Positions 32,156 to 39,854 of a stretch of DNA of 64,000 bases are shown in pieces (the first letter of the stretch is position 1; each line of letters opens with the position of its first letter). Made by a program: the position numbers and the translations under genes. The notes beneath the pieces were generated by a model that worked only from the letters and a program-made list of their open reading frames with translations, was not told where the DNA came from and did not search any database. The DNA is from Colwellia sp. Arc7-635 (GTDB taxonomy: Bacteria; Pseudomonadota; Gammaproteobacteria; Enterobacterales; Alteromonadaceae): contig NZ_CP034660.1 of the NCBI RefSeq assembly GCF_003971255.1, positions 4,526,001-4,590,000 of the forward strand, in the 5' to 3' direction.

Positions 32156-35100
32156 ATGGTTAATTTTCAAGGATATACATTCGTCAAGGAGCAGCAAGAT
32201 ATTTCAAGCTCTATAAAATTATTTATTGTAAAAAATGATACAGGGCAATTTTTTTTAGTTAAGCGATTAAAAAAAAACAATAATCCTCAATCATTTACCC
32301 GCTTTAAAAAATTTTTAGACTTCCAATATAAGCTAGCAATAGAATCATTAGTGGCCGCTATCGAATGCCATGACGAACGGCAATATTATTATGCTGTATT
32401 TCCTTTTACTGAACAGACTAAATCATTAACCGAACTGTCGTTAGCCTCCCTTCCATTGAGTGATAAGTTGCAAGTTGCGATTAATATTTGTCAGTTTTAT
32501 GCGCAACTACATCAACTAGGTTTTATTGTTAACAATATTTGCCCTGATACCCTTTATATTGATGAAAACCTGCAACCACGAATATACGATTTAAACTTTG
32601 CGACAAAAATTTCTGTGCTCTACAAAAAAACAGTGAATACTGGAGTTGAACGACAATATTTAAGTACTCTCTCTCCTGAAGCCAGTGGTCGTATGAATCG
32701 GGCGATTGAAGTCTACTCCGACTTTTATGCTATTGGCGCTTGTTTATTTAACTTATTTACTGGCCGATTGCCGTTTATATACACCGATGAAATGGAACTA
32801 GTGCATGCGCATATTGCCAAAATCCCTCGTCTTGCTAGCGAATACAATCCCGATGTACCAGAAGCAATTTCTAATATACTTGCACGATTATTAGAAAAAG
32901 AACCGCATCAACGTTATCAAACCACGCTAGGTATAAAAGCTGACTTTCTACAGTGTGCTAGCGACTTCAAAAAATTCAATAATATTTCATTATTTCCTTT
33001 GGGCAGAAACGATTTCAGTAATAAGCTAATTTTTTCTTCCGCTATTTTTGGTCGAGATAAAGAACTACAAATTTTATTGCAGGCTTTTCAATATGTTGAA
33101 CAACAAAAACGCAGTCAAATCTGTGTCATTAGTGGCTGCTCTGGCGTGGGCAAATCTAGGCTGATTAGAGAATTACATCGACCTATTATCGAAAAACAAG
33201 GTTATTGCATTTCAGGAAAATATGAACAATACGGTAAACCTACGGCTTATTTTTCGTTGATTCAAGCGGTTACCGATCTTGTCGAACAGCTATTAGGTGA
33301 AAGCGAGGACAGTTTAGCTAGTTGGAGAAATGTTTTTCAGGTGGCATTGCAAGGCAATGGTCAGTTATTGATAGAACTTGTTCCTGAGCTTGCGTTGATC
33401 ATTGGTATGCAACCCATACCTGTCGAACTACCGGTAGAAGAGGCTCGTCATCGCTTTAATTCAACATTGCATAATTTTTTACAAGCAATAGGACAGCAAA
33501 ATAGAATAGTTTCGATCTTTCTTGATGATATGCAATGGGCAGATATTGCCACAATTAACCTATTACGACACCTTATCGACTCGAATGACAGTACCAATAT
33601 CTTGTTAACACTCGCTTACAGAGACAATGAGATCAATGCCATACATCCATTGAACGCGCTGTTAGAGGATATAAAGCAAGCCTCAACACTTAATAGTTAC
33701 ATTCATTTATTACCCTTGGATTCTGATGCAATCGGACAATTCATTTCCGCATCATTATCTTTAGCATTAGAAAAAACCCAAGCGTTGACAGAAATCATTA
33801 TTGCAAAAACAGCGGGTAATCCATTCTTTATTATAGAATTTATTAAATCTTTGAATGAACAAGGCATATTAACCAAGAATAAAAATAATCAATGGCATTG
33901 GGATCAAGAGCTAACCCATACCATGGCAGCAACCGATAATGTTATTGAGTTAATGGCGCTACGATTGACCCATGTTTCAAAGCAAGGGCAAAATATATTA
34001 CACCATGCCGCATGTATCGGTAGCATAGTCACGATTGAGCTCTTAGCCGAAGTCGTTGGGGCGAGCCATAAAGCGATAGAGCGAGAATTACGGCCATTAA
34101 TCACCGATGGTTTATTAATCGCTTATTCTCAAGGTCAGCAAGTTGATGTATTAGAAAGAATTAAATTCTCCCATGACAAAATTCAACAAGCGGCTTATTT
34201 ACTGAATAATCCGACGCCAAAATCACTTATTCATTACAAAGTAGCGCAGTATTATTTATCAGACGTCAGCTCGATGACGATGAAAAACGCTCCAATTGAA
34301 AGTAACGTTTTTGATTACATAGAGCATCTAAATTTAGCTTCATCTTTATATCTTGAACAAGACAATCAAATTTTATTAGCTTATTTCAATAAAGTCGCGG
34401 GTCAAAAATCATTAGAAAAAAACGACTACAATAGTGCGTTGTATTACTTTGAACAGGCTGAAAACTATTTAAATCTGCAGCACTGGCAGCAAGACTACGA
34501 CTTATGTTTAGACATTGCATTAGGTAAAGCCACCGTACTGTATTTCACGCAAGATCATCATCAAGGTAATTTACATTTTAAGTTACATAGTGAGCTGATC
34601 AGCGAAATTATTGATCAGGCTAAATTTGCAAAAATTCAAATTTTGTCATTCATTGCTCAAAACGAAATGCAAAAAGCTTTTGATCTCGGTATATCGACAT
34701 TACAAAAAATCGACATATCACTACCTAAAGCGTTCGAAATGCCAAATTACTTATCGGTAGAACAGTATTACCAAAATGATAAAATTGCTGATGTTGTTAA
34801 TTTACCGACAATGACTAACAAGCGCCAATTATTGGCCTTAGATATTTTGAACGCTATCCAAACACCGGCATATTTATTAAGCACCCTAGAGTATATGCGT
34901 ATAGGGCAAGTATCGCTTGAACTGTGTTTAACTAATGGCTTGTCAGCCTTAAGTGCTAAAGTTTTTGTAATACATGGCTTATTACTCTGCGGCGTATTCA
35001 GCCGTTTCAAGGAAGGTCTAGCCTTTGCTAAATTAGCGGCAAAGGTCAATCGACTTTATCCTTCAGAAAACATTTATGTGGAAATAGAATTCGCCCACAA

Positions 35101-38100
35101 TGTTTCAATATCTCACTGGACGTCGCCGCTACGTTCGACCTTAAAACCATTAGAACAAAATTTTTATTCTGGCGTTGAGTGCGGCAGTATTGAATACGCT
35201 TTTCACTCGGCTTTGTTTCACAGTATGCACAGCTTATTTTGTGGTGAAGGTCTCGCCTTATGTCATAATGTATTTGCCCGCCATGCTGATGTAATGAAAA
35301 CAAAAAAACACGATTACCAACGCACTATGATGCAAGTATGGCAACAGCTTATTAGCAACCTACAGCATGAAAATAGTGATGTTGACAATCTACAAGGCCA
35401 ATATTTTAATGAAGCATTACAGCTGCCTATATTGATTGAAACGGGTAACGTTACTACGCTATTCACTTATCATTTAGCACGTATGATGCAAGCCTATCTA
35501 TTTAACGATATCAGTCAAGCTTACGCACAAATGCAACGAGCGCAGCAATACCATAACTCTGTTGTTTCTTTATATCACTTTGGTGAATTTCATTTTTATG
35601 CGGCGCTCATTCGTGCTCAGCATTGTCGTTATCAAGAGTCTAATTTTCAACTAGATTGTTGCCATGAAGATATTGCACAAATAAATGCTAGCCTTGAATT
35701 AATCGAGCAGTGGAGTACTAGCGCTCCGGAGAATTATCTCCATAAAGCAAAGTTGATCCGCGCTGAATTACAGTTTTTATTAAAAGACAGCGCAGCATGG
35801 CTGCATTATGATCAAGCCATTGAACTGGCAGAACAACATTCGGCTAATCATCATTTAGCACTTGCCAATGAACTCGCCGGCAGTTATTGGCTAGCGGCTA
35901 ATAAAAAATCATTAGCGCGAGATTACTATCAACAAGCGGTTAGAGATTATCGAAAATGGGGAGCAAATCATAAAGCACAACAGATACTGCAGTTACGCCA
36001 AACACTACTAGCTGTACCGGCTAGTGAACATGACAACCTGCCTAGCTATCAAAAGCACAATACAGCACAGGTGCTTGATCTTGCTTCGGTACTAAAGGCG
36101 TCAGAGACCTTAAGTGGTGAAGTGGATTTAACCGCATTCCTGCATCGTATGATGGTCATTATTATTGAAAACGCGGGAGCACAAAATGGCGCTTTGTTAC
36201 TACAAAGCGATGGCATTTTAAATGTCGAAATTGCCCTATCTCGCGACGGTATTGCCAATACCGAACAACAACTGCCTTATTCTATTATCAATTTTGTTTC
36301 TCGCACTCGTAAAGCGCAAGTTTTAACTAACATAAGTCTGCAGGCACAGTTTTTTTCTGATCCTTATTTTAAAAATCAACAGCCAAAGTCCATTATCTGC
36401 ATTCCAAGTATCGTAAAAGGAAATTTACAGGGCATTGTTTATCTTGAACATTATGATATTGAAGGTGCTTTTAGCGATGAACGAGTTAATATTTTGCAAC
36501 TGCTTGCAGATCAAACCGCGATTTCATTTGATAATGCCAAACTATATCAGCAAGTATTACGTTACAGTCGCAATCTTGAAAATCAAATTCATGAACGAAC
36601 AAAAGAGTTGGCGGCAGAAAAAATCAAAGCAGAGCAAGCAAACCAGGCTAAATCTAATTTCTTAGCAAACATGAGTCACGAAATTAGAACGCCTATGAAC
36701 GCTGTTATTGGTTTGAGTCAATTAGCCTTACGCACCAACCTGTCATTAACTCAACAAGATTACCTTGAAAAAATACAAGACTCGTCTAAGTCGCTGTTAG
36801 GTTTAATTAATGACATTTTGGACTTTTCAAAAATAGAAGCACAGAAATTAACCTTAGAAAGCATTCAGTTTTCTTTACCCGAAATTCTGCAACGCGTAGT
36901 CAATGTTTGTGCCTTTAAAGTACATCAAAAAAGTGTCGAGTTCGTTATCGATATAGCACCTGACGTGCCAAAAATATTGATTGGTGATCCATTACGTTTA
37001 CAGCAAGTGATCATAAACTTAGCAAATAATGCCGTGAAATTTACTCAGTCGGGATCTATTCACCTTTGCATTAAAAAACTGCGAGAAGACAGCCAAACGA
37101 GCTTACTAAGATTTTCGGTACGCGATACCGGCATAGGCATGAGCGAAGAACAGCAACAAGGGTTATTTCAGTCATTTACACAAGCAGATGATTCTGTGAC
37201 TCGCAAGTACGGTGGTACCGGTTTAGGTTTAGCCATTAGTAAACAGTTAACCGAGCTCATGGGCGGGGAAATAACACTCACCAGTAAATTAAACGTGGGA
37301 TCAACCTTTAGTTTTACTGCAATCTTTGAGCATGCAAAGCAAGTCATCGATACCCTGCCAACCGTTAACCACCAAATGCTAACTAACTTAAAAGTTTTAG
37401 TTGCTGATGATATTGAAATTGCTAGAAAAGTTTTGATAGAAACGTTAGCCAACTTAGAGATTTCCGCCTACGGTGTAACCAATGGTGAACAAGCACTTGA
37501 GGCGTTATTATCTGCGGAAAGAGATGGCGTTCCTTATGATGTTGTCTTGATGGATTGGAAAATGCCCAAAATGGACGGTATTGAGACCACAAAGAAAATT
37601 CGCGCACAAGCGAAAAGGCAATATCCGAGTATTTTAATGGTTTCGGCTTACGACAAAGGCGAAGCGCAAACACTAGCCCTAGCTGCTGATATTGATGAGT
37701 TTATTGAAAAGCCAATAAATCAATCTGCACTAGTGGATGCCATGATTAAGCTATTAAGTAAAAAAAGCGAAGAAGTTGCATTAGATTATGCCCCTTTGGT
37801 ACTCGATATACCTGATTTATGTGCCTATAAAGTTTTGTTAGTTGAAGATAATCTGATTAACCAACAAGTTGCTAAAGAATTTTTAGCGGATACAGGTATT
37901 AGCATTGAGTGTGCAGAAAATGGTTTAATTGCTTTAGAAATGGTCGCCACAGAAGCCTTCGACTTAGTGTTGATGGATATTCAAATGCCTGAAATGGACG
38001 GCTTAACGGCAACCAAAGAAATTCGCCAAACATTACAATTACAAGATTTACCCATTATTGCCATGACCGCACATGCCATGGCTGGCGATGTAGAAAAAAG

Positions 38101-38851
38101 TATTATTGCTGGCATGAATCAGCATTTAACTAAACCCATTGAGCCCGGGTTATTATACAAAACTCTCAGCCTATATTTGGAAAAGCCCAATAAAGGTTTA
38201 CACGATCAATCAACTATCCCTGTGAGCTCTAATAACACCAAGCAAACATTAGCGACCTTGCGCCAGGAAACTGTTTTAGCCGTTGACGAAGCAATAAAAA
38301 GACTACAAGGTAAAGAGGTGCTCTATGCTGAGTTGATTCATGATTTTTGGTCGAAATATCAAACGCTGTCACAACAAATGGTGCAAGCTTACAAATCAGG
38401 ACAAGCTGAGTGCTTGTATCGCTATGCTCATTCATTAAAATCAACGGCTCAGTATATTGGAGCTTACGAGTTGACTGCTTCTGCCAGTGCACTCGAAAAT
38501 GAAATTCATCATCAAGGGTTGTATATCGAATTAAAACTAAATGAAGTGGCTACCTGTTTAGATTTTATTATCGCGCAGCTCAATCGTATTTATCATCATG
38601 CTACCTCGACTAACATTAAGCAAAAACTTGATGTTAAAGGTGCAAAAAAGATTATAAAAAATCTAATGCCCTGCTTAATTTCAGCTAATATACAAGCAGA
38701 AGAAATCGTTGGAAAATTAATGAAAATAGGCTACGAAACACCCTATCAACAACAGATAAAATCCATACAAGACATGGTCAACGATTTCGAGTTTGATGAT
38801 GCATTGGCTGAATTATTAATCTTAGAGCAAACAATAATCGACGCCAAGTAG
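32156..38851 (+). CDS. Giant signalling protein: kinase-like, AAA-type ATPase, GAF, histidine kinase, two receivers, Hpt
   Basis: 2231-residue cytosolic sensor of the multi-domain serine/threonine-kinase/ATPase/histidine-kinase family. Order: kinase-like domain (about 5-275); AAA-type ATPase with Walker A GCSGVGKS (327-334) and Walker B LDD (456-458); helical TPR-like region (about 690-1300); GAF (about 1310-1470); histidine kinase with His1508 in [10 protein letters not shown] box and G boxes; receiver 1 with Asp1800; receiver 2 with Asp1941; Hpt with His2092 in [10 protein letters not shown]. The kinase-like domain keeps Lys36 but has Asn127 in place of the catalytic Asp, Thr132 in place of the metal Asn, and Asp-Leu-Asn (145-147) instead of DFG. 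It is probably a pseudokinase. The 25-base gap before the receiver-GGDEF gene suggests an operon and a phosphorelay ending in cyclic-di-GMP. The input signal is unknown. Confidence 0.9.
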
Positions 38852-38876
38852 CTAACTCTCGACAAAGGAAGTAACA

Positions 38877-39854
38877 ATGCAACCGTTCAACAAGGAAGAA
38901 CGCCGTCGTACCAGCGAGAAAAATTATACAATACTGTGTATAGATGACGAAAGTGTCAACCTGAAAGTATTAGCATCCATCTTCAAAGATCATTACAACG
39001 TGGTCGCGTGTAAGAGTGCTAAGCAAGGTTTTCAACACGCTTTACAAGAAAGTCCTGATATTATTTTACTTGACGTATTAATGCCTGATGAAAATGGTTT
39101 TGAGCTCATGGAAAAGCTAAAAAAACATCCAAAATTATCACAAACGCCGGTAATTTTTATTACCGGCTTACAAGATGTTGAAGACGAAGAGAAGGGCCTA
39201 ATGCTGGGGGCTTGCGATTATATTCAAAAACCGTTTAATTACGGTATTGTTCGCGCTCGCGTTAACACTCATTTAGAAATTATTCGTCAACGCAATTTAT
39301 TAGAAAAATTTGCCTTATTCGACAGTTTAACTGAGTTGCCTAATCGCCGAAAATGGCAGCAAGACAGCGTCAACCATTGGCGTTCAGCTATTGAAACTAA
39401 AAGCCCCGTAGTTTACGGCATTATCGATGTCGACTATTTTAAAAAATACAATGATCATTACGGCCACCAGCAAGGTGATTTGGTACTACGAAAAGTGGCT
39501 AATATAATCAGAAGAAGCTTATATCACTATGGTGGTGCTATTTTTCGCTGCGGTGGGGAAGAGTTTTATTTTTATTTTTCGATTGGCAACGACTACAAGG
39601 CAAATAATATACTAACGGCTTGTTTAAACAGTGTTACTGAACTCGCTATTCCACATGAGGCGATTGACAACAATAGTTACGTATCCGTCAGTATTGGCGC
39701 AGTGGAAGTCATTCCTAATGAAAAAACATCGATAGAACAAACAATGCAACAAGCAGACGAACAATTGTATCTCATTAAAAAAGGCACTCGCAACGCAGTT
39801 AGCCTTCTAGAATTAACGCAAACCGCGCAAAGCACTTCGCTTGACACGGTTTAA
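38877..39854 (+). CDS. Response regulator with GGDEF domain (diguanylate cyclase)
   Basis: 325-residue cytosolic cyclase. The receiver (about 18-135) has CIDDES and the phospho-acceptor Asp in ILLDVLMPDENG, with the Lys of IQKPFN. The GGDEF domain (about 155-310) has the active-site motif as GGEEF in FRCGGEEFYF, and DVDYFKKYNDHYGHQQGD for substrate and metal. No RxxD inhibitory site is seen 5 residues before GGEEF, so product inhibition may be weak. It follows the giant sensor at 25 bases and probably takes phosphate from its Hpt domain; this is inferred from adjacency. Confidence 0.93.
   Translation: MQPFNKEERRRTSEKNYTILCIDDESVNLKVLASIFKDHYNVVACKSAKQGFQHALQESPDIILLDVLMPDENGFELMEKLKKHPKLSQTPVIFITGLQDVEDEEKGLMLGACDYIQKPFNYGIVRARVNTHLEIIRQRNLLEKFALFDSLTELPNRRKWQQDSVNHWRSAIETKSPVVYGIIDVDYFKKYNDHYGHQQGDLVLRKVANIIRRSLYHYGGAIFRCGGEEFYFYFSIGNDYKANNILTACLNSVTELAIPHEAIDNNSYVSVSIGAVEVIPNEKTSIEQTMQQADEQLYLIKKGTRNAVSLLELTQTAQSTSLDTV

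Follow-up and report, generated by a model that had tools for sequence, protein, structure and literature searches.

A conserved hybrid sensor kinase and receiver-GGDEF gene pair in Colwellia as a candidate two-gene cyclic-di-GMP signalling unit

Two adjoining genes of Colwellia sp. Arc7-635 are situated in the window analysed here, the window being the whole stretch of 64,000 nucleotides. The first gene encodes a very large hybrid kinase with its own receivers and a histidine phosphotransfer (Hpt) domain and the second a small receiver-GGDEF protein. The pair is real and conserved, and we consider it likely that its products, made of parts known in kind, work in one pathway as a two-gene cyclic-di-GMP (c-di-GMP) signalling unit.

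The gene pair and its domains

The features of the locus, in positions of the window, are these.

32156..38851, + strand: hybrid sensor kinase, 2231 aa (ORF call, Pfam, motifs, locus typing)
32228..32926, + strand: protein-kinase-like domain, residues 25-257 (Pfam PF00069 Pkinase, 49.3 bits)
33044..33604, + strand: AAA_16 ATPase, residues 297-483 (Pfam PF13191, E 3.1e-30)
34373..36055, + strand: helical region, residues ~740-1300 (secondary structure of a low-confidence model, up to residue 1200)
36125..36526, + strand: GAF domain, residues 1324-1457 (Pfam)
36647..37318, + strand: HisKA, residues 1498-1562, and HATPase_c, residues 1610-1721 (Pfam; His1508 codon 36677-36679)
37391..37741, + strand: receiver 1, Response_reg (Pfam; Asp1800 codon 37553-37555)
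37832..38164, + strand: receiver 2, Response_reg (Pfam; Asp1941 codon 37976-37978)
38330..38506, + strand: Hpt, residues 2059-2117 (Pfam; His2092 codon 38429-38431)
38877..39854, + strand: receiver-GGDEF protein, 325 aa (Asp66, GGEEF, no RxxD inhibition site)

From the N to the C terminus the 2231-aa protein is thus laid out as kinase-like domain, AAA_16, helical region, GAF, HisKA-HATPase, first receiver, second receiver, Hpt and a helical tail, and the Pfam domains of both proteins all score above the curated cut-offs. The ORF coordinates give lengths of 2231 and 325 aa and a gap of 25 bases, on the same strand, and so bear out the size of the first protein and the gap stated in an earlier note on this DNA. 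The AAA, GAF, histidine kinase, two receiver and Hpt domains named in that note were recovered by Pfam, as was its receiver-GGDEF neighbour (Response_reg 19-128, GGDEF 146-306), but the N-terminal protein-kinase-like domain was missing from its list. The helical region, described there as 'TPR-like', has no Pfam match and appears only as helices at residues ~740-1200 of a low-confidence model (mean pLDDT 54 for residues 1-1200, a poor prediction); it may be TPR-like. No strongly hydrophobic stretch was found in the 2231-aa protein, the top 19-residue hydropathy mean being 1.87, and a periplasmic sensor domain gave no Pfam match; two membrane kinases of the same genome reach means of 2.94 and 3.08.

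No coding-strand terminator-like site was found between the kinase and cyclase genes. Terminator-like matches exceeded those in shuffled sequence (16 versus 7.1) and promoter-like matches were not above the shuffles (28 versus 31.1). The purine-rich stretch 5' of the cyclase start would be a ribosome site.

Phosphotransfer residues and the partner cyclase

Relatives of the sensor half (residues 1-1315, at E 1e-30) were found in at least 22 of 394 order-sample genomes, at least 60 of 295 family-sample genomes and at least 19 of 369 class-sample genomes, the window's own being counted each time; these are lower bounds, the two best candidates per genome having been scored. The typed set comprises 95 loci including the window, in 97 rows (L230 and L231 have two reading frames each), of which 41 are relay loci with the arrangement HK-REC-REC-Hpt and 54 are non-relay. 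It takes in all but 7 of 64 family-sample matches (contig ends truncate several of the 7, though not G498 or G473, and some of those truncated are probably relay kin), all but 1 of 23 order-sample matches and all but 6 of 26 non-window class-sample matches, and the models used for domain typing, built from the window's own family, miss divergent kinases.

The residues His1508, Asp1800, Asp1941 and His2092, proposed earlier as the phosphotransfer sites, each lie within the expected motif on inspection and were correctly placed. In the alignment, columns 1508, 1751, 1752, 1800, 1852, 1898, 1941, 1993 and 2092 are invariant in all 41 relay proteins. The signature of a multistep phosphorelay (His-Asp-His-Asp with acidic pockets and Lys) is present on the kinase side in 41 of 41 and on the cyclase side in 39 of 39. 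A structure predicted for the C-terminal 230 residues (mean pLDDT 70) displays a confident helical bundle round His2092 followed by a helical tail; Hpt structures were among its Foldseek matches, none of which reached E 0.001. The suggestion that the two receivers and the Hpt domain are additions to a plainer layout is supported.

The protein at 38877..39854 is by its domains and GG[DE]EF motif (here GGEEF) a receiver-GGDEF cyclase, with predicted activity, and Asp66 takes the phosphoacceptor position. By phmmer it matches PleD chains at E 6.2e-34 and other receiver-GGDEF chains at 6.4e-33 to 4.3e-29. Its receiver and GGDEF domains are common to it and to PleD, WspR and DgcR (we take structures 6zx* to be DgcR and 3bre to be WspR), but unlike that comparison group it is without the RxxD inhibition site. 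Of the 40 partner cyclases of the relay loci, 19 have this site and 21, the window's included, lack it. The acidic pair, Asp66, Thr96 and Lys118 are kept in all 39 partners aligned (L173 left out), and 38 of 40 retain GG[DE]EF. The spacing from KP to DxLT is 31 in all 40, 7 shorter than in the PleD alignment, and fits the heptad rule as given in PMC8041772. In the account of the same source, switching by phosphorylation is described for receiver-GGDEF cyclases and RxxD serves product inhibition. The partner cyclases of L186 and L188 have a degenerate active site, SGQEF, suggesting that the output of the unit need not always be synthesis. The kinase-like motifs of the L186 and L188 sensors are likewise far from consensus.

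The pathway that we infer, in its phosphotransfer steps, its direction of control, its ligand and the inactivity of its kinase domain, runs as follows. A soluble sensor composed of pseudokinase, AAA_16 ATPase, helical scaffold and GAF would read a cytoplasmic cue and set the activity of the histidine kinase. Phosphate would then move from His1508 to a receiver aspartate (1800 or 1941), from this aspartate to His2092 of the Hpt domain, and from His2092 to Asp66 of the neighbouring receiver-GGDEF protein, where phosphorylation would switch the cyclase on (or off). What was observed here and underlies this pathway is the domain make-up of both proteins, the invariance of the phosphotransfer residues, the conservation of the pairing and the existence of related forms with a fused GGDEF. 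The unit could also mainly lower c-di-GMP, with the sensor acting by default as a phosphatase on the cyclase receiver and the signal stopping synthesis. Hybrid kinases can run phosphate backwards, and the sequence does not fix the direction of control, and one may therefore entertain this reading, which we find possible and on the whole doubtful.

Conservation of the pair

Within the genus, the kinase was found in 12 of 16 other genomes at 62-74% identity over residues 1-1315, a set that leaves out a partial match in G049 and matches to the kinase domain only. The cyclase was found in the same 12 at 72-82% identity, with 37 candidates scored in most genomes and the counts again being lower bounds. 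The gene 3' of the pair is presumably gmk, and the names aminotransferase, methylase-like and HD-GYP are likewise presumed for genes in this analysis. The order of kinase, cyclase and gmk is identical in all 12 carriers, and the spacing between kinase and cyclase varies from a 17-base overlap to 92 bases. Named relatives at nine loci, with 62-73% identity over residues 1-1320, belong to Cognaticolwellia and Colwellia (cultured or metagenome-assembled).

The other four same-genus genomes have no kinase match and no intact cyclase at the site; 37 cyclase candidates were scored in each, and a distant second copy may exist. In them gmk is found close to the aminotransferase gene, which in the window is a neighbour of the pair. 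At the site of the pair nothing is found in three; the fourth has a frame-shifted cyclase remnant near gmk (L094, 2480-2853), from which it follows that a cyclase was formerly present there and then lost. The genome of L094 would thus once have possessed the whole kinase-cyclase pair.

Beyond the genus, the 41 relay loci are spread over 12 genera and two families. A receiver-GGDEF gene is the next gene in 37 of them and lies within the cluster in 40. In three loci of one genus (L173, L174 and L175) a methylase-like gene and a second kinase-REC-Hpt gene are inserted before the receiver-GGDEF gene. The cores of these second kinases fall inside the relay family in the tree, and the two kinases may share one cyclase. 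L190 has a full relay and no adjoining cyclase, and L191, the other copy in the same genome, has one. Among the 54 non-relay loci, of which L241 and L201 had fewer than 100 bases available downstream, L247 alone has a gene for a REC-GGDEF-bearing protein (849 aa) next downstream. The window is part of a single contig of 4.74 Mb, over which the genome contains 59 GGDEF matches (two genes being split in two pieces), and set against this number 37 adjoining cyclases in 41 loci are more than chance. The earlier note had staked its reading on conserved adjacency in relatives, and the two genes are found side by side both in the 12 of 16 same-genus genomes and in the 37 relay loci.

The gmk gene follows the pair in 19 of 41 relay loci, the window included, spanning 3 of the 12 genera, and was not found within the fetched stretch in the other 22. 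The downstream surroundings therefore change while the pair stays. This observation bears on the possibility that the relay works with the adjoining cyclase not as its main target, the Hpt domain feeding another regulator and adjacency reflecting shared expression only. Hybrid kinases with an Hpt domain can serve several receivers, and L190 has no cyclase beside it. The 37 of 41 adjacency kept over 12 genera despite changing downstream neighbours, and the absent or broken cyclase in the same four genomes that have no kinase, speak against such an arrangement, which we judge improbable. With regard to an exclusive pathway to the neighbouring cyclase, the 7 Hpt matches beyond the window's (8 in all) and the 59 GGDEF matches of the genome leave room for cross-talk.

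The sensor half and related systems

In the kinase-like domain of the window, VNN replaces the expected HRD and DLN the expected DFG, and all 13 same-genus copies read VNN there. The domain is probably a pseudokinase, predicted to be inactive. In L177 and L178, both relay proteins, Asp stands in the HRD column without His and without Asn. On the sensor tree three changes are required to account for the relay label, giving about three independent origins, and the loss of HxD therefore amounts to some three independent cases and is not significant by itself; with kinship allowed for, a sign test of relay against HxD loss (3 independent pairs) was not significant. The reading of this domain as an active Ser/Thr kinase, implied for the cyanobacterial relatives by the name 'dual kinase', may draw on the Pkinase match, on Lys36 and Asp145 being retained in the window, on the Asp of L177 and L178 and on the small number of independent origins, but is very unlikely given that HxD occurs in 0 of 41 relay proteins versus 42 of 56 others (two cyanobacterial sequences included) and that Lys36, Asp127, Asn132 and Asp145 stand together in none of the relay proteins versus 30 of the 56. 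The motifs of the AAA_16 domain are preserved: all 13 same-genus copies have both Walker A (GxxGxGKS) and Walker B (FLDD), and of the 41 relay proteins every one has Walker A and 40 have the Walker B Asp-Asp.

The ten best plasmid matches to residues 1-1315 by tblastn are all cyanobacterial, with 29-33% identity over 90-100% of the query. The HstK-type dual kinases of cyanobacteria (cbSTKIII), whose make-up is given as STK, GAF and HisKA (PMC2176072), resemble the window's protein in that a single polypeptide unites a kinase-like domain, an ATPase region, a GAF domain and a histidine kinase. HxD is present in the two cyanobacterial sequences compared but not in the window, and relative to the HstK type the window kinase adds two receivers and Hpt, followed by the cyclase gene. 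With neither HxD nor DFG found in it, we file it as a cbSTKIII relative with a putative pseudokinase, not as a dual kinase.

Related sensor modules lead to other outputs. Of the 54 non-relay loci, 28 encode the module joined directly to a GGDEF domain, and Pfam confirmed GGDEF in all five fused proteins submitted (L189, L185, L132, L134 and L081). These relatives, as judged from their domains, would link the sensor type to c-di-GMP independently and provide the best independent support for the proposed output. Downstream of L081 and L198, both of them sensors with a GGDEF domain of their own, another GGDEF protein that lacks a receiver is encoded, at distances of 303 and 325 bases. Some related sensors end as histidine kinases without Hpt; Pfam places HATPase_c at the end of L230 and L237, for which typing with the family models had given GAF only. 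In L236 the module ends instead, by Pfam, in an adenylate/guanylate cyclase domain. Such HATPase_c and adenylate/guanylate cyclase endings imply that c-di-GMP is not the only output of this sensor type.

In the trees the L190 sensor half clusters with the GGDEF-fused L189, while the L190 kinase core is placed, with moderate support, close to the relay family. In AU tests on 42 of 97 rows, based on a quick LG+G4 tree and on groups chosen after the first tree had been seen, a place for the L190 sensor in the relay clade was rejected (p 0.0002 when all 19 relay rows were kept together, 0.0005 when L191 was omitted). A sensor swap had also been considered for L191, which FastTree had set apart, and was dropped as a relay-clade sensor is not rejected for it (AU p 0.24, L190 left out). 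Sensor halves thus appear to be still recombining, L190 by these trees being a relay half joined to a sensor half of the GGDEF-fused type.

One may speculate, tentatively, that these proteins constitute a modular family of c-di-GMP sensors, in which a soluble pseudokinase-ATPase-GAF module acts through a fused GGDEF domain or, in one lineage, through a four-step relay between the sensor and a separate cyclase, the kinase domain being kept as a dead regulator that reads a ligand or nucleotide. That the fused form is ancestral to the relay form is a guess, the trees being unrooted.

To the earlier note the pair had looked, of all parts of the window, most like an undescribed regulatory system. 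In kind, a hybrid kinase with Hpt beside a receiver-GGDEF gene is known, and it recurs in the same genome. In L003 (1-4702; C1 4081885 on) an HK-REC-REC-Hpt protein with a membrane-type sensor lies 4 bases before a receiver-GGDEF gene; its Hpt is near the Pfam cut-off, at 20.9 bits (under) in one search and 24.9 (just over) in another. In L258 (1653-6004) of the same genome an MHYT-PAS-kinase-REC-Hpt protein lies 23 bases before a receiver-HD gene, presumably of the HD-GYP type, which by its family would have the opposing c-di-GMP activity. In the Borrelia Hk1-Rrp1 system, as reviewed in PMC4013479, a hybrid kinase with REC and Hpt adjoins a receiver-GGDEF gene and the activity of Rrp1 depends on its phosphorylation, although phosphorylation of Rrp1 by Hk1 lacked experimental proof according to that review. 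The likeness to the window's pair, a REC-Hpt hybrid kinase beside a receiver-GGDEF gene, is one of analogy, with no homology claimed. In the same account Hk1 senses through two periplasmic domains and has a single receiver, whereas the window kinase has another kind of sensor, two receivers and no periplasmic domain recognised by Pfam, and Rrp1 is the sole GGDEF protein of its organism while the window cyclase is one among 59 GGDEF matches. More generally, genes for HK-RR-Hpt proteins adjoin RR genes 10 to 50 times above expectation in most prokaryotic species that have them, as stated in the census of PMC4558063. A Clostridium thermocellum protein of 1826 aa with kinase, 6 TPR and GGDEF (PMC1262709) has a Ser/Thr-kinase-type domain and helical repeats fused to GGDEF and, compared by description only, is perhaps of the same kind as the 28 fused forms; in contrast to the window kinase, the passage on it names no relay. 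No published description of this particular kinase-cyclase pair was found in the literature searched, which lay outside most subscription journals, and no relative was found in a scan of viral contigs. Within the reach of these searches, both halves are of known kinds, and what is new is the combination, the apparently dead kinase domain and the conservation.

For a part of the large and poorly understood sensors of the kinase-AAA-GAF type, the pair provides a testable output, c-di-GMP, which would be reached in two ways, through a cyclase fused to the sensor or through a relay that ends at a neighbouring one. Among the related loci a single sensor type occurs both with a phosphorelay and without it, which allows a natural comparison. 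The pair further suggests that bacteria have conserved a pseudokinase within a sensor of the histidine-kinase type.
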